Below are positions 17,316 to 59,520 of a stretch of 64,000 nucleotides of DNA, one piece after another; within the stretch, counting starts at the first letter, position 1; each line of letters opens with the position of its first letter. A program made the position numbers and the translations under genes. The stretch is from assembly GCA_024640225.1 (NCBI GenBank), contig JAHEFK010000007.1, positions 1 to 64,000 of the forward strand, written 5' to 3'. The notes under the pieces are model-generated. The model was not told the DNA's origin, did no database searches, and saw nothing but the letters and a program-made list of their open reading frames with translations. This DNA is from Bacteroidota bacterium (GTDB lineage: Bacteria; Bacteroidota; Bacteroidia; Chitinophagales; Chitinophagaceae).

Positions 17316-18080
17316 TTAATTGATTTCAATTGTTAATCCATCATAAGCCAGATAAATATTTTCTGGCAATTGGCTTTGCACTTCTTCGTGCAATCCTAGT
17401 TGATGGCTTATGTGGGTAAAGTAGGTTTGCTCGGCTCCGATTTCTTGTGCCAAGGTAATAGCTTCCGAAAGACTGAAGTGAGAAATGTGCGGTTCCTTTC
17501 TAAGTGCATTAAGTACTAAAATCCTGGATCCTTTAATTTTATTTTTCTCAGTGTCTGAAATAAAATTAGCATCAGTTATGTATGTGAAATCATTGATTCT
17601 GAATCCATAAACTGGCAATTTATAATGTAATACTTCAATTGGGGTGATGACGGTTTGATCTATGCAAAATGGCTGATTTATGATTTCATGAATTTCTAAT
17701 TCAGGAACGCCTGGGTATTTTTTGTCTGAAAAGGCATAATCAAAATCTTTCTTTAGTACTTGAATGGTAGCTTTATCGGCATATATATCGATAGGCTTTT
17801 GAAGTATATAATTAAAAGCACGAATATCATCCATACCTGCGGTGTGGTCTTTATGGCCATGGGTAAAAAGGAGGGCTCTAAGATCGGTGACCTTTTGGCG
17901 GAGCATTTGTTGTCTGAAGTCTGGACCTGAGTCTATAACTAAATTACCATTATGCGTTTGGATGAGTAAAGAACTTCTCAGCCTATTGTCTTTTGGATTG
18001 TTTGACAAGCAAATAGGACATTGGCATGCAATAATAGGCACGCCTTGAGATGTTCCGGTTCCTAAGAATGTAATTTTCAC
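17316..18080 (-). CDS. PhnP-like metallo-beta-lactamase-fold phosphodiesterase
   Basis: A 254-aa cytoplasmic MBL-fold hydrolase. The first Zn-binding motif THGHKDH is at residues 73-79. An N-terminal structural zinc site is suggested by Cys19, Cys21 and Cys24 in ACQCPICLS, as in PhnP (cyclic phosphodiesterase of phosphonate use). Further ligands are likely in YITDANF and THISHQLG. No phosphonate genes are nearby, so the natural substrate may be another cyclic or nucleotide diester. It starts with GTG (18078-18080), 3 bp after the stop of the upstream small gene, so the two form an operon. Confidence 0.85.
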   Translation of the reverse strand: MKITFLGTGTSQGVPIIACQCPICLSNNPKDNRLRSSLLIQTHNGNLVIDSGPDFRQQMLRQKVTDLRALLFTHGHKDHTAGMDDIRAFNYILQKPIDIYADKATIQVLKKDFDYAFSDKKYPGVPELEIHEIINQPFCIDQTVITPIEVLHYKLPVYGFRINDFTYITDANFISDTEKNKIKGSRILVLNALRKEPHISHFSLSEAITLAQEIGAEQTYFTHISHQLGLHEEVQSQLPENIYLAYDGLTIEIN

Positions 18081-18083
18081 AGT

Positions 18084-28588: not shown

Positions 28589-30058
28589 ATGAAGCAGAAA
28601 ATAAATAAATTAGTGTTGTTAATTGTCATGTTGTTTGTAATTAGCAACTTGAGTTCGGCACAATTAGTTTGTTTTTCGGATGCGGAGAAATTTGATAAAA
28701 CATTTAATGCTTATTTATTAATTGGAAAAATAAATAAACAAACCTATACCGTTACTAGTTATAATAAGGAATATATGCTTCATATTTACAATGATAAATT
28801 GGAGCTGCAGAAGCATATTTTACTCGATTTTTTACCCAATAAATGTGAAAACGTAGAGGCCTTTTTATACCAAAACAGTAGTATAGTATTCTTGTATAAA
28901 TACATAGATAAAGGTATAGGCTATGCAGAATTTGCGAGCCTTAATTTAGATGGATTGCTAAAAAGGCAGAGTATAGTTTTTGAAAAGAAAACAAGCTTGT
29001 TTAAAGGCGATATAACTGAATTTAATTGGGCAATATCAGAAGATAAAAAACAATTTGTTTTGTATAATGCTCAACAGCGTCAAAATTCCTTTCAAATACA
29101 GTATTGTTATAATGTAGCCGATTCCCTTTCCGCAATTCATACCGTATCCGTACCTACCAATGAAATAGCATTACTTAGCAAATTTGTGCTTAATAAAGAC
29201 GGTGTATTGGCAACGTTTATTCAAGATGTATCAGCTTCATTGAATAAACCTTTTTCTCATGCGCTTGCTACCATACATCTAGTTGATGAATCCGTTGGTT
29301 TTAGCAGTATTCCTTTGCCTTCAAATGCTTATGCGGTAGAACATCTTGTAACACCTCATCCCGTTAATAACCAATTTTTCTTATCCGTCATTGTAAAGGC
29401 AAAAACTAGACAGGCTGTTAAGAACTTACAAATTTACCAAATTGTTGAAAAAGGTGCTAAGGCAAGAATGTTAGCTTCCTATGCCTTTAATGCCAATGAA
29501 TTATTCGCACAAGCATCGATGTCTTCCAATTTCGACTGGCAGCAATTTCATTTGAATAAAGTGATTTGTAAAAAAGATGGAAGTTTATTTTTAGAACTAG
29601 AAAATTATTTTGAAACGAGTAGAGTAGTAAATATGGGTGGTTTTTCTGTAATGGCTTTTGGAAGTGCACCAATGTCTAACACTAAAACTATTAGAGAGTA
29701 TCATTATGGACCAGCAGCTATACTTAATTTCGATAAGGACGGTATTATTAAGTGGTGTTCTGTAGTAGATAAAGAACAATTTTCTCAAGATGATGAAGGT
29801 TATTTTTCATCCTATGCTACCGTTCTTTCTGGTGGTAATTTGCTTTATTTTTATTCAACCATTGGTGCAGATAAAATCAGAGGTCAATTTGTGTCGGTGG
29901 ATGCTATAACTGGAAAATTAGACTTAGAACCTTTACGCGCTTATAAAAACGAAACAAGTGAATGGATTCCTAGAAATTCATTACAAATAAGTGCCAATGA
30001 ATTACTAATTCCATGCATTAAAAAGAAACAATTGTATTTAACCAAGCTCATTTTTTAA
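28589..30058 (+). CDS. Secreted protein of unknown function
   Basis: A 489-aa exported protein. A signal peptide (KLVLLIVMLFVISNLSSAQ) is followed by a long, strand-rich sequence with repeated patterns such as YMLHIYNDKLELQKHILLDF, KTIREYHYGPAAILNFDKDG and LLYFYSTIGADKIRGQFVSV that suggest a beta-propeller or other repeated-sheet fold. No T9SS domain, lipobox or catalytic motif is present, so it is probably periplasmic. I cannot assign a family. It lies in a plus-strand run after the DCC gene (12 bp) and 10 bp before the DUF6427 membrane gene. Confidence 0.75.
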   Translation: MKQKINKLVLLIVMLFVISNLSSAQLVCFSDAEKFDKTFNAYLLIGKINKQTYTVTSYNKEYMLHIYNDKLELQKHILLDFLPNKCENVEAFLYQNSSIVFLYKYIDKGIGYAEFASLNLDGLLKRQSIVFEKKTSLFKGDITEFNWAISEDKKQFVLYNAQQRQNSFQIQYCYNVADSLSAIHTVSVPTNEIALLSKFVLNKDGVLATFIQDVSASLNKPFSHALATIHLVDESVGFSSIPLPSNAYAVEHLVTPHPVNNQFFLSVIVKAKTRQAVKNLQIYQIVEKGAKARMLASYAFNANELFAQASMSSNFDWQQFHLNKVICKKDGSLFLELENYFETSRVVNMGGFSVMAFGSAPMSNTKTIREYHYGPAAILNFDKDGIIKWCSVVDKEQFSQDDEGYFSSYATVLSGGNLLYFYSTIGADKIRGQFVSVDAITGKLDLEPLRAYKNETSEWIPRNSLQISANELLIPCIKKKQLYLTKLIF

Positions 30059-30068
30059 TTTCCCTATA

Positions 30069-31052
30069 GTGTTTAGTCTTTTTAGAAACAATAACCCTTT
30101 TGCTGTTTTATTATTATTGGTATTTGCCTTCTTACTTTTTGCATTGCCTACTTATGTTATTAAGCTTGAACCGATAATTGTACATAATTCCGTACTATTT
30201 AATTATATACTTGACTTTGCCAACTGGTTTTTAGGTTCTAATAGAAGTGTATATATTTTTTTATCTTTTTGCTTAACTATTTTTCAAGCCTTATATCTTA
30301 ATTATTTAGCTGTTAAGAATAAATTATTTAATCAAACAGGTTATTTGCCAGCATTATTATTTGTTTTTTTAGCTACACTATTTAGCTCCTTTAGGGAATT
30401 TACAGCTACGCAGTTAGCCTTATGTTTTTTATTGCCGGCGATGAATTTGATCTTTAGCATCGGCTCTAGTCAATCACCAAGGAAGCATTTATTTAATATT
30501 GGTTTTTTATTTTCTTTGATAGCGTTGCTTATACAGCCGGCCTATCTGTTCTTTGTTTTAATGTACCTGTGTATTGCCTTCCTTCGACCTGTTTATTTAG
30601 TAGAATGGGTAGTGCTTTTACTTGGATTCCTTACCCCTATTTATTTTTTTATTACTATTTTATACTTGTTTGATTTTACTCATTGGTTAGCATTAATCGG
30701 TAACATTCATCTTGTACATCTTAAAGATCTTCATATACAAGTTGCAAGCCTAATCTACCTTGGATTTTTTATTCTATTACTGCTAACAGGTATTTACTTG
30801 CTGCAAGCTCAATTAACCCTATTAACTATTTATGTAAGACGCTGCTGGGCTATTGTTTTCGGTATGCTAGTTTTTAGTGCTGTTGTTGCTTTGTTTATGC
30901 AACAGGAGCAATCGGGTAATTGGTTATTAGTTGTGCCCGCTTCAGCTTTATTGATTTCTAATATTTTTACTTCTGATAAACGAAAGCAATTTGTTACATT
31001 TGCTTTTTATTTAGTGTTTGCAACACTTATAATATTTAGATTTTTTTTATAA
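30069..31052 (+). CDS. Polytopic membrane protein, DUF6427-like
   Basis: A 327-aa inner-membrane protein with about ten hydrophobic segments, beginning with the motif LFRNNNPFAVLLLLVFAFLL seen in DUF6427 proteins of Bacteroidota. Function unknown; no transporter signature is visible. It starts with GTG at 30069, 10 bp after the preceding stop; a GTG start is supported because the conserved N-terminus begins there. The next gene, purQ, follows after 22 bp. The coding sequence is very AT-rich, as expected for membrane segments in this genome. Confidence 0.75.
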   Translation: MFSLFRNNNPFAVLLLLVFAFLLFALPTYVIKLEPIIVHNSVLFNYILDFANWFLGSNRSVYIFLSFCLTIFQALYLNYLAVKNKLFNQTGYLPALLFVFLATLFSSFREFTATQLALCFLLPAMNLIFSIGSSQSPRKHLFNIGFLFSLIALLIQPAYLFFVLMYLCIAFLRPVYLVEWVVLLLGFLTPIYFFITILYLFDFTHWLALIGNIHLVHLKDLHIQVASLIYLGFFILLLLTGIYLLQAQLTLLTIYVRRCWAIVFGMLVFSAVVALFMQQEQSGNWLLVVPASALLISNIFTSDKRKQFVTFAFYLVFATLIIFRFFL

Positions 31053-55982: not shown

Positions 55983-56053
55983 GGATTCTTTTGGGTAAGT
56001 TTCTATTTTTTGTTATTATTCGCTTTATAATGGAAAGAATGCTTAGTTTTTTT

Positions 56054-56061
56054 TATTTTTG
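56054..56061 (+). promoter_or_regulatory. Bacteroidota -7 element TATTTTTG before the SprE/PorW gene
   Basis: A consensus match. It overlaps a TTG at 56059 that would extend the ORF, so the true start is probably further downstream (TTG at 56140 or 56143). Confidence 0.45.
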
Positions 56062-56142
56062 GTAGAATTAAGAATACGGTATACTATTTTTACAGTTTCT
56101 CCGTTATTTTTAAAGCGTTTTATATTAAAAATCAAAGACTTG

Positions 56143-59100
56143 TTGAGGAAGCTGCACATTTATTTTATTGTTACTTTACTTTTATTTGCTGTTTATACTG
56201 ATTCCTTATTTGCTCAGTATAATAAGTCTATAGATTCAAAAGCACTTGCTGCTCATAAGTTAGATAGTATTAAATCTCAGCGTGCACTTTTCTTAAAACA
56301 AGTAGAAGTTCAACGAAAAAAGAGAGCCGATAGTATTGCTAATATTCAGCGTTATAAATTAAGTAGACATTATAGGGACAGTATAACTAAAAAAAGGCTT
56401 CACAAAGCAGACAGTATTAAACAAGTAAGGCTAGCAATTTTAGACGAACTGAAGCAAGCTCGTTTGCGAAAATTAGACAGTATAAATTTATTAAGGAATC
56501 CTAATTATAAGCCTAAAGCTAGGCCATTAACCAATGTAAAATCGCCTAGTAAAAAGTTTGATGTAGCAAAAAATAACAAGCGTTATAACGACAGTCTTTT
56601 GTTGATGCAAACCAGTAATGGCAATAAGTCAACTAAAAAGCGACTCAGTAAAGCAGATAGTTTACAAAATGTTAGAAAATTAATATTAGCAGAAAAAGCT
56701 GCTCAAAGAAAAGCTCAAATGGATAGCATTGCAGCCATAAGAAAGCAAAAAGCTGATTCTGTACTTCAAATCAAAAAGTCGAAAAATGAGCAGTTGGAGG
56801 AGGTGAAGAAAAGGAAAGAGAATATTGCTAAATCTAATGAGAAGAAAAGTGAAGACAAATTTAAGTTGGCTTTAGAATTAAAAATTCAGAAAAAAAGGGA
56901 GCTTTTTTCAAATGAAAATATGTTGAAAAAGGGTTGGTATTTTCCAAGAAATTTTATTCAGAATTTATTTACCCGATTTAATTATCATTTTAATGCCCAA
57001 AAGAAAATAAAAGAAGCAAGGGCAAATATGGATCGGTTATACGTTGATAAATTTGATACGCTTATTAACTTGTTTACCTACCTACCAAAAGATTCCACCA
57101 TTTATGGAGCTGATATGGATTCCATAATTCGAAAGGCGTCGTTGGGCATTCAAATTCATGACCCTAGAACCAAATGGGCCGATGATTTGTACTTCTTGAT
57201 GGGACAAGCCTATTATTACAAAGGGGATTATGAAAATGCCATTGCTGCATTTCGATATGCAATGCTTGTGCAAGATATGTATCCTACAAAAGGAGCTGCC
57301 AAACAAGTAAGTGATAAATTATCTGTTGTAAAAAATAAAAAGAAAGGACCATTAGGTTGGTTTGCTCATAAGCCAGTTAAAAATGATGCTATTCTATGGT
57401 TGTGTAGGACATTGGTAGAAAATAAAAAATATGGTGAAGCTGAATCTGTATTAGACCTATTAGAATCGGATAAGAAAACGGATCGATTTATGAAAGGCAA
57501 GGTAGCCTTAGAACATGCCTATTTAGCCATAAAAGATGAAGATTTTGTGTTGGCTACTGAATCACTAACAAAAGTTGTAGCCACTAAAAAGATGCCTAAA
57601 GCAATTAAATTGAGGGCTTCTTTTCTTTTGGCTCAATTGTCATTTTCACAACATGCATATGATAAAGCAGAGCGAGCGTATGCTGCCGCATTGAACTATC
57701 ATCCTAATTTAGAAATGGATTTTGAAGCTAGAAAGGGTATTGCATTATCTAAAGTCGCAAATAGCAATGTTGATAATAAGGCGCTCAATAGTTTGAAAGA
57801 GATGTTGCACGACAACAAATATAGTAACTATCAAGATCAGGTATATTACATGTTAGGTAAATTATCCTTACAGATTGATACTAAAAATAGTGCTATTGCT
57901 TATTTTCAAAAAGGCTTACACTTAATAAAAATAGCGCCTTCACAAAAAGCAATTTTATATGCCGCATTGGCTAATGTTTATTTTGATAATGGCAATTATA
58001 AAATTGCCAAAACAGCTTTTGATAGTTTAGATAAATATAAAACGAGTGCTGCAAAGCATACTGAAGTTGTGTTAGCGCTTAGTAGATCTAAAGTGATTGA
58101 TGAAATTGTTATTCCAATTCGATCTATAAAAGAAAAGGATAGCTTAATTCATCTAGCCAATCTATCCGATAAAGAACAAAAGGCTGTTATTAAAAAGTAT
58201 ATTAAACAATTGGAACGCCAACAAGCAGATAGTGTCAACCAAAATAATACGGTCTCGGTTTCTATTCCAACAATTGTTACCAAAGAATCTTCAACATGGT
58301 ATTTTGGAAATGCTAATCAAATTCAAATGGGTGCTACTGATTTTAAGCGTAAATGGGGTAGTAGGCCTAATGCAGATAATTGGAGGAGAATAGCAAGTAT
58401 TGGTCAATCTAACGCTGCTGGCTTAAATGAACAAGATGCTAAAAATAACGCTGCCGATACTGCCAATTCAAATGAAAAGGGCTTGCCAACTGAAACATCT
58501 TTGTTGAGTTTATTACCTAAGACAAAAATTGAGCAAGAAAAATTGCTTAATCAAATTCAAAAACACTATATCGATTTAGCAAATGCCTTTTTGGATAATT
58601 TAGATGATCATAAAAATGCTACCCAATCCCTAGATACTTTGCTCAAGCGATTCCCTAAGAGTTTATATAAACCTGAGGCTTTGTATTTGTACTATAGAAT
58701 GGCATTAAAAGAAAATAATGTTCGTTTTGCACAAAAAATGGTTACCCAATTAAAAGATAGTTTTTCTCAATCTAAATGGGCAATGTTGGTAAAGCCATCT
58801 GCAGACCAGGACTGGAATGTGCAAAATCAACGAAAATTAATGCTTCAATATGATTCTGTGTATACGCTTGTATCGAAACGTAATTTTGATTCATCTTGGT
58901 TAGTTTTGGAAAGTATTAATTTGGATAAGTTTTCTGATACTATGAAACAGCGCTTCTATCTGCTGAAAGCTATTACGTACATTGGTTTAAATAAATATGC
59001 TACTGCCGATAGTTTTTTTAAAAATGTCAAACCATTTATTAAACAACAAGCTCTTGCAAATTGGGTGCAAGCAGTTGAGCAGCAATTAAGTTTACATACC

Positions 59101-59520
59101 GTTAAGGATACCATAGTTAAAAAAGATGCTATTACTCCTCAAGTAGTGTATCCTTATACATTAGATTCTAATGCTACTTTTAACGTAGTTATTTACTCCA
59201 CCTTAAAAGAGTCACTTTTTAATGCTCTTGTTGCGTCTATAAAATTATGGAATACGAATACCTTAAAATCAACAGCACTTAAGGTAGAGGGTATAAAATT
59301 GCCCAATGGTACAAATATAATTAATGTGAGTACTTTCCCTAATAAGTCCAGTTCAACACAATATATCATAAGCCTAAGCAATTCCTTTTTGATGAAGCAA
59401 ATTCCTGCAAGCGATTATGCTATGTATCCTATTTCTAATTATAATTTTACAAAAATCACTAAACCTGAACATTGGTTTTCTTATTTTGATTTTTGGAAAG
59501 CTAATTTTTCAACGAAATAG
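56143..59520 (+). CDS. sprE: SprE/PorW-like type IX secretion component, TPR protein
   Basis: A protein of about 1126 aa. The best family clue is WYFGNANQIQMGATDFKRKW followed by GSRPNADNWRR, which matches the SprE/PorW signature; these TPR proteins are needed for T9SS secretion and gliding. Order: signal peptide (LHIYFIVTLLLFAVYTDSLFAQ), a basic coiled-coil region with nine xDS(I/L/V) repeats, TPR-type helices from about residue 270, the signature at about 730-750, more TPRs and a C-terminal beta-rich domain. No ATG occurs near the 5' end; TTG 56143 gives a normal signal peptide, and TTG 56140 or 56059 are alternatives. No lipobox is present, although PorW is known as a lipoprotein. Confidence 0.82.
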   Translation: MRKLHIYFIVTLLLFAVYTDSLFAQYNKSIDSKALAAHKLDSIKSQRALFLKQVEVQRKKRADSIANIQRYKLSRHYRDSITKKRLHKADSIKQVRLAILDELKQARLRKLDSINLLRNPNYKPKARPLTNVKSPSKKFDVAKNNKRYNDSLLLMQTSNGNKSTKKRLSKADSLQNVRKLILAEKAAQRKAQMDSIAAIRKQKADSVLQIKKSKNEQLEEVKKRKENIAKSNEKKSEDKFKLALELKIQKKRELFSNENMLKKGWYFPRNFIQNLFTRFNYHFNAQKKIKEARANMDRLYVDKFDTLINLFTYLPKDSTIYGADMDSIIRKASLGIQIHDPRTKWADDLYFLMGQAYYYKGDYENAIAAFRYAMLVQDMYPTKGAAKQVSDKLSVVKNKKKGPLGWFAHKPVKNDAILWLCRTLVENKKYGEAESVLDLLESDKKTDRFMKGKVALEHAYLAIKDEDFVLATESLTKVVATKKMPKAIKLRASFLLAQLSFSQHAYDKAERAYAAALNYHPNLEMDFEARKGIALSKVANSNVDNKALNSLKEMLHDNKYSNYQDQVYYMLGKLSLQIDTKNSAIAYFQKGLHLIKIAPSQKAILYAALANVYFDNGNYKIAKTAFDSLDKYKTSAAKHTEVVLALSRSKVIDEIVIPIRSIKEKDSLIHLANLSDKEQKAVIKKYIKQLERQQADSVNQNNTVSVSIPTIVTKESSTWYFGNANQIQMGATDFKRKWGSRPNADNWRRIASIGQSNAAGLNEQDAKNNAADTANSNEKGLPTETSLLSLLPKTKIEQEKLLNQIQKHYIDLANAFLDNLDDHKNATQSLDTLLKRFPKSLYKPEALYLYYRMALKENNVRFAQKMVTQLKDSFSQSKWAMLVKPSADQDWNVQNQRKLMLQYDSVYTLVSKRNFDSSWLVLESINLDKFSDTMKQRFYLLKAITYIGLNKYATADSFFKNVKPFIKQQALANWVQAVEQQLSLHTVKDTIVKKDAITPQVVYPYTLDSNATFNVVIYSTLKESLFNALVASIKLWNTNTLKSTALKVEGIKLPNGTNIINVSTFPNKSSSTQYIISLSNSFLMKQIPASDYAMYPISNYNFTKITKPEHWFSYFDFWKANFSTK

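Follow-up and report, generated by a model that had tools for sequence, protein, structure and literature searches.

An SprE/PorW orthologue without a lipobox, with a TTG start and a basic rod, in a Chitinophagaceae genome

SprE and PorW are names for the tetratricopeptide repeat (TPR) scaffold of the extended translocon of the type IX secretion system (T9SS). SprE of Flavobacterium johnsoniae is described as a lipoprotein with a lipid anchor (PMC10994853), and PorW of Porphyromonas gingivalis has a type II signal peptide (PMC8754138). All PorW members are said to share a lipobox, in an account whose alignment holds nine species, none of them Chitinophagaceae (Gorasia et al. 2022, PMC8754138). 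The lipid of PorW/SprE has moreover been used to explain the importance of lipoprotein sorting for the T9SS (PMC8754138). Here we analyzed an sprE/porW gene from a member of the Chitinophagaceae, located at positions 56047-59520 (+) of a window of 64,000 nucleotides, i.e., the whole stretch of DNA analyzed (positions 1 to 64,000 of contig JAHEFK010000007.1, assembly GCA_024640225.1). We propose, with a probability of roughly 0.7, that its product is an unlipidated SprE orthologue exported through signal peptidase I (SPI), which would act as a soluble periplasmic scaffold held by SprA; a basic rod would serve as an added tether, and a TTG start would lower translation.

Identity and a signal peptide without a lipobox

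The open frame is complete, including its stop codon, with no internal stops or frameshifts. Its product matches the profile NF052312 (T9SS_PorW_SprE, an equivalog) with 349.6 bits, above the curated cut-off of 250, and the best stretch of this match, residues 440-991 (57376-59031, +), corresponds to the core with its TPR repeats. TPR families match the protein as well, and SprE as determined by cryo-EM (PDB 8gl8 chain I, 8gl8_I) is homologous over the TPR scaffold in two stretches (E = 7e-14). On these matches the gene is the single-copy orthologue of SprE/PorW; an earlier note, made from the letters of the window, had called the protein SprE/PorW-like, a description with which the strong profile similarity agrees. 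The host genome (G000; 1.85 Mb, 96.5% complete) also encodes SprA, GldK, GldN and 48 T9SS cargo tails, indicating that a T9SS is present.

The predicted Sec signal peptide (56140-56214, +) consists of a short positively charged segment and a hydrophobic core following TTG 56140/56143, and it ends in ...LLLFAVYTDSLFA|Q without a Cys. With a small residue at -1 and Gln at +1 (SLFA|Q), this is an SPI site of the Q-rule type, and there is no lipobox. We read the N termini of PorW/SprE from stop to stop in 199 genomes, so that every possible start was covered, which excludes that a lipobox was overlooked through a wrong start. The set comprised 137 of 148 genomes of the host family Chitinophagaceae (11 had no usable PorW place), 24 genomes from the rest of the order (23 from a first set plus G229), 20 of 21 from the rest of the class and 18 of 89 from the rest of the phylum, the last being mostly the strongest matches, with the weak ones below the cut-off mostly left unread. 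Start codon, cleavage and localization were called from sequence with simple rules.

An SPI site with Gln at +1 was found in 126 of the 137 family genomes, preceded at -1 by Ala (76), Gly (30), Ser (13) or Cys (7). Four others (G076, G090, G112 and G113) were flagged for a lipobox, and these flags are doubtful, as a Q-rule site lies a few residues behind each. The remaining seven were left uncalled: five are cut or masked, and in G007 and G121 inspection by eye shows an SPI site of a non-Q type. Outside the order, the rules identified a lipobox in 36 of 38 genomes (19/20 in the remainder of the class, 17/18 in that of the phylum); G206, missed by the rules, carries SWAC-S when inspected by eye and makes the 37th, and the other miss, G197, was read in a wrong frame. 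The 24 genomes from other families of the order yielded 13 lipoboxes, 7 SPI-Q sites and 4 uncalled cases. PorW without a lipobox was observed there in families f6, f9, f12, f14, f16, f19 and, in part, f3 (loci L019, L021, L026, L013, L181, L189 and L192), arguing that the lipobox was lost more than once. In G016 and G137 (L027, L041), the hydrophobic stretch picked by the first rule precedes another stretch of frame, and the start of PorW is ambiguous.

GldK served as a control. All 67 GldK sequences have a lipobox, including all 33 from the family, and lipoprotein export has therefore not been lost in the family. In a tree of the conserved part of SprE, the family formed one clade (134/134, support 1.0), and lipidation required at least 6 changes, vs a mean of 43 with shuffled labels. 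This tree holds 192 sequences, seven having been left out by hand (G197, G105, G151, G129, G041, G056 and G206). Labels were set by eye to SPI for the four doubtful lipobox calls of the family, G007 and G121, and to lipobox for G054. The intended outgroup was not one clade, which affects neither the unrooted splits nor the change counts. Judged by sequence, SprE of the host family is thus exported via an SPI signal peptide that leaves an N-terminal Gln, without a lipobox. The earlier note had remarked on the missing lipobox of this one protein and had suspected that the lineage may attach SprE differently; the former turns out to be lineage-wide, which lends support to the latter. As the lipobox is absent, we file the gene as an SprE/PorW orthologue but not as a PorW lipoprotein.

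A non-ATG start and a basic rod

The first in-frame ATG of the sprE frame lies at 56605, codon 186 of the open frame, in keeping with the report in the earlier note that no ATG is found near the 5' end. Of the 41 non-overlapping frames of at least 150 codons in the window, there are four in which more than 45 codons precede the first ATG (the window edge cuts one of these), and the sprE frame is the most extreme. Two further long frames, 17319-18083 (-) and 30042-31049 (+), have their first ATG at codons 59 and 133, with likely GTG and TTG starts, respectively. Translation of sprE likely starts at one of two TTG codons (56140-56145, +), the second of which is followed by Arg-Lys. That this later TTG yields a signal peptide ending in FAQ without Cys had been noticed before, and the sequence confirms it. 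When relatives were checked for an ATG start and a lipobox Cys, the close one, a metagenome-assembled genome of the same genus (L002/L031; protein 77% identical), was found to share the frame and the TTGTTG and to have neither an ATG nor a lipobox Cys. A block of 36 nucleotides spanning the TTGTTG region (56116-56151, +) is identical in the two genomes, though their signal peptides have diverged.

We compared start codons between genes by one rule, which accepts an in-frame ATG anywhere between 28 codons upstream and 1 codon downstream of the start of the signal-peptide core. A start class could be assigned to sprE in 191 of the 199 genomes, and 62 of these 191 have no ATG: 26/28 in the clade whose SprE carries a rod (see below), 11/104 in rodless members of the family, 12/22 in the rest of the order, 11/20 in the rest of the class and 2/17 in the rest of the phylum. 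No ATG was present near the signal peptide of sprA in 38 of 52 genomes (loci among L346-L397); the sprA of the host genome itself (L352, G000:C7) has one. The ring genes gldK (0/67) and gldN (0/31; 0/98 together) never lacked an ATG. Within one set of relatives, the corresponding figures were 20/53 for sprE, 38/51 for sprA and 0/81 for gldK and gldN. Thus, non-ATG starts are frequent in these two genes of the translocon and absent from the two of the ring.

In one clade that includes the host genome, an insert of 180-350 residues, the rod, sits between the signal peptide and the scaffold. The rod of the window (56215-56931, +) has 239 residues, with DS units in an 11-residue register, 65 Lys and Arg, 25 Asp and Glu, and a net charge of +40. 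Ten DS pairs lie between the Gln and the conserved core, and nine of them are the xDS(I/L/V) units that had been counted in the earlier note. The first conserved helix follows 254 residues after the Gln; this linker measures 194-367 residues in 30 of the 137 family genomes and mostly 41-51 in rodless family members, and the distance from Cys to that helix in lipidated orthologues is mostly 11-25 residues. The 427 DS-to-DS gaps of 30 related proteins include 254 of exactly 11 residues, 73 of 22 and 46 of 16, vs 13.5 gaps of 11 expected on average from random DS placement. Relative to the Asp, the repeat has hydrophobic residues at +2 and +5 and Arg or Lys at +6/+7, with few Pro or Gly. The gaps in the window are 10, 22, 16, 11, 22, 38, 22, 22 and 11, and its rod is a decayed version of the repeat. 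A search of PDB sequences with the rod gave no match below E = 0.05. The rod genomes are monophyletic (30/30, support 1.0), which indicates a single origin of the rod; G078, which the rod rule had caught with 4 DS in a 42-residue linker, was removed from the set by hand.

SprA is also altered in this clade. A loop of SprA is 136-217 residues long in all 11 rod-clade sequences read (L349-L354, L356, L357, L359, L364 and L367), vs 39-97 residues in 8 rodless family members; here and in the analysis of sprA start codons, G001, in which no PorW gene was found, was counted in the rod clade by genus only. In most of the clade the loop ends in a basic, helix-like stretch with the DS motif of the rod, e.g., QLDSL..KAEK.KRK. 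As the enlarged loop of SprA and the rod of SprE map to the same clade, we count them as one event, but together they suggest that the translocon changed jointly.

A scaffold proposed to be held by SprA

From the orthology, the unlipidated Q-rule signal, the rod and the TTG start, all of which are read from sequence, we infer a localization, a tether and a tuning of synthesis. Mature SprE, probably with a pyroglutamate, would be soluble in the periplasm and would stay at the outer membrane through its contacts with SprA and not through a lipid. Retention of this kind is plausible because SprE of F. johnsoniae is immobile with SprA even without SkpA (PMC10994853). The rod may bind something anionic: it would run along or across the periplasm and contact peptidoglycan, the membrane or lipopolysaccharide phosphates, and it is most likely an electrostatic tether, an extra one specific to the clade. 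The TTG start would lower translation such that SprE and SprA, translocon proteins with one copy per machine, remain scarce beside the ring proteins, needed in tens of copies; it probably reduces the synthesis of a subunit required in few copies. A wider, joint reading is more tentative and, in our estimate, rather doubtful. According to it, SprE/PorW is no lipoprotein throughout the family and in several further families of its order, so that the machine can dispense with the lipid; selection favors non-AUG initiation of sprA and sprE throughout the phylum, which keeps the subunits of the translocon scarcer than the PorK/N ring; and SprE and the enlarged SprA loop of the rod clade gained DS-type basic helices as a new polybasic tether between translocon and cell wall.

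Several observations weigh against the proposed scaffold. The calls of start, cleavage and localization all depend on the simple sequence rules given above, and the signal peptide of G076, the best of the four flagged cases, contains a sequence, VLAC, that passes as a lipobox. The AlphaFold model, made for the window and L031 sequences only, is too uncertain to use (mean pLDDT 38, and ~33-60 in the helices at 12-94 and 148-229), which leaves the helicity and length of the rod as predictions. Regarding the start codon, only 11 of 104 rodless family members have an sprE without ATG, the other 93 having one near the start, and the controls gldK and gldN are two genes of one operon. The sprE start codon needs 27 changes on the tree, and non-ATG use in sprA shows no association with that in sprE across genomes (Fisher p = 1.0), a result at odds with a strict rule of stoichiometry.

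The last two observations, a start codon that flips often and two genes that do so independently by genome, are also what would be expected if the non-ATG starts of sprE and sprA reflected neutral drift in long, weakly expressed genes, without any regulation. We give this explanation somewhat less than even odds. Against it stand the absence of non-ATG starts in gldK and gldN in largely the same genomes, their frequency in the rod clade (26/28), and a TTG region that two species have in identical form despite their diverged signal peptides.

The earlier note had suggested attachment through the basic repeat region, the rod thus replacing the lipid anchor by binding the outer membrane or the cell wall in place of acyl chains. 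The rod does occupy exactly the place of the lipidated Cys and the short linker of other families, and all 30 rods are strongly basic (net charge +30 to +59). However, the lipobox is missing throughout the family, including the 107 of 137 genomes that have no rod, except for 3 doubtful cases or cut genes; in 98 of the 107 an SPI site was recognized, either called as SPI-Q or seen by eye as non-Q, and the remainder are ambiguous or uncallable. The lipid was lost before the rod arose or independently of it. As rodless members are unlipidated too, and as the rod arose once inside an already unlipidated family, the ability of the family to do without the lipid cannot stem from the rod. The rod is probably no simple substitute for the lipid, and a functional replacement of the anchor appears unlikely.

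We consider it more improbable still that SprE is anchored to the inner membrane by an uncleaved hydrophobic stretch, from which the rod would reach across the periplasm to the translocon in the outer membrane, in the manner of TolA. The protein does have a hydrophobic segment at its N terminus, and the 239 residues could bridge the periplasm if helical (239 x 0.15 nm = ~36 nm, by arithmetic), but 126 of the 137 family members retain the A/G/S/C|Q site, which directly follows a short core, the usual layout of signal peptides. Finally, a sequencing or assembly error that deleted an ATG start and a lipobox, as an ATG 186 codons into the frame might suggest, has a negligible chance and was rejected, because an independent genome of the same genus reproduces the frame and the 36 identical bases over TTGTTG, the pattern is family-wide, and the frame is intact.

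Natural orthologues that lack the lipid open a direct way to test what the anchor does. The contrast between recurrent non-ATG starts in sprA and sprE and ATG starts in gldK and gldN hints that the stoichiometry of the machine may be set at translation, in a phylum that has no Shine-Dalgarno sites; ribosome profiling has been reported to estimate the stoichiometries of T9SS proteins (PMC6847099). The rod appears to be an unrecorded module. In listings and abstracts of open-licence PMC papers, we found no account of unlipidated PorW/SprE, of a DS rod or of sprE or sprA genes that start at a codon other than ATG, and no open-licence PMC paper found had both 'type IX secretion' and 'hendecad'.

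Upstream DNA, gene context and known systems

Two promoter candidates precede the predicted start. The first, TATTTTTG (56054-56061, +), is a -7-like box (TAnnTTTG) that is also present in L031; here it shares bases with the frame's first TTG, at 56059; the promoter consensus has been given as TTTG/TANNTTTG (PMC6847099). The box thus lies where the earlier note had placed it, over the first possible TTG, but it is not the sole candidate. The second is a shared upstream element, TATACTATTTTTACAGTTTCTCCGTTATTT (56080-56109, +), detected by matrix score and k-mer enrichment, which may be a promoter, a motif of the 5' leader or both. Its family form, about ATAATA..TTT..CAGTTATT, is bipartite and A+T-rich with fixed spacing, ends in CAGTTATT and occurs across the class.

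The window element scored 14.1, vs 11.4 for 99% of the null, with a matrix trained on the sequences that it scored and a null that ignores relatedness. Scores above the 95% null were obtained for 19/26 sequences of the rod clade, 61/104 of the rodless family members, 14/22 of the order and 13/20 of the class. The heptamer CAGTTAT occurs within the 110 bases before sprE in 37 of 189 cases, vs 1.6 in shuffles and 2 of 98 gldK/gldN upstream regions. In a genome-wide count over 39 genomes, the strict form of the element was not commoner than its reversed control, and a variant whose spacing was 3 bases shorter turned up about as often. At that strictness the element is therefore neither a general promoter nor provably gene-specific, and it may be a leader motif or belong to a promoter whose start region is unusual. 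An Rfam search of the leader returned two matches only, both far below the gathering score. A sigma-70 scan of the region gave 5 sites, fewer than in shuffles; sigma-70 is not the promoter type of the host phylum.

The sprE gene stands alone, as an SprT-like gene and others lie upstream on the opposite strand and a gene that reads as RelA/SpoT-like in sequence lies downstream. One OmpH/Skp-like gene was found in the host genome, vs three in G002 and between two and four in each of the others searched, which may reflect a gap in the 96.5% complete assembly or a loss of SkpA.

As to known systems, domain II of TolA is a long periplasmic helical rod. Like it, the rod of SprE is basic and predicted to be periplasmic, and it may likewise be helical; the SprE rod differs by its 11-residue DS register and has no PDB match below E = 0.05. 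At its cleavage site, SprE of the window resembles the Q-rule SPI substrates of Bacteroidetes, in which Gln directly follows an A/G/S/C site, and no difference was seen (PMC5837995). With SprE of F. johnsoniae it shares the homologous TPR scaffold and a genomic T9SS context; the F. johnsoniae protein is described with a lipid anchor, whereas the window protein has no lipobox and a linker of 254 residues after its Gln. PorW of P. gingivalis belongs to the same NCBIfam equivalog as the window protein, but it has the lipobox that is absent from the latter and from at least 126 of the 137 family members.

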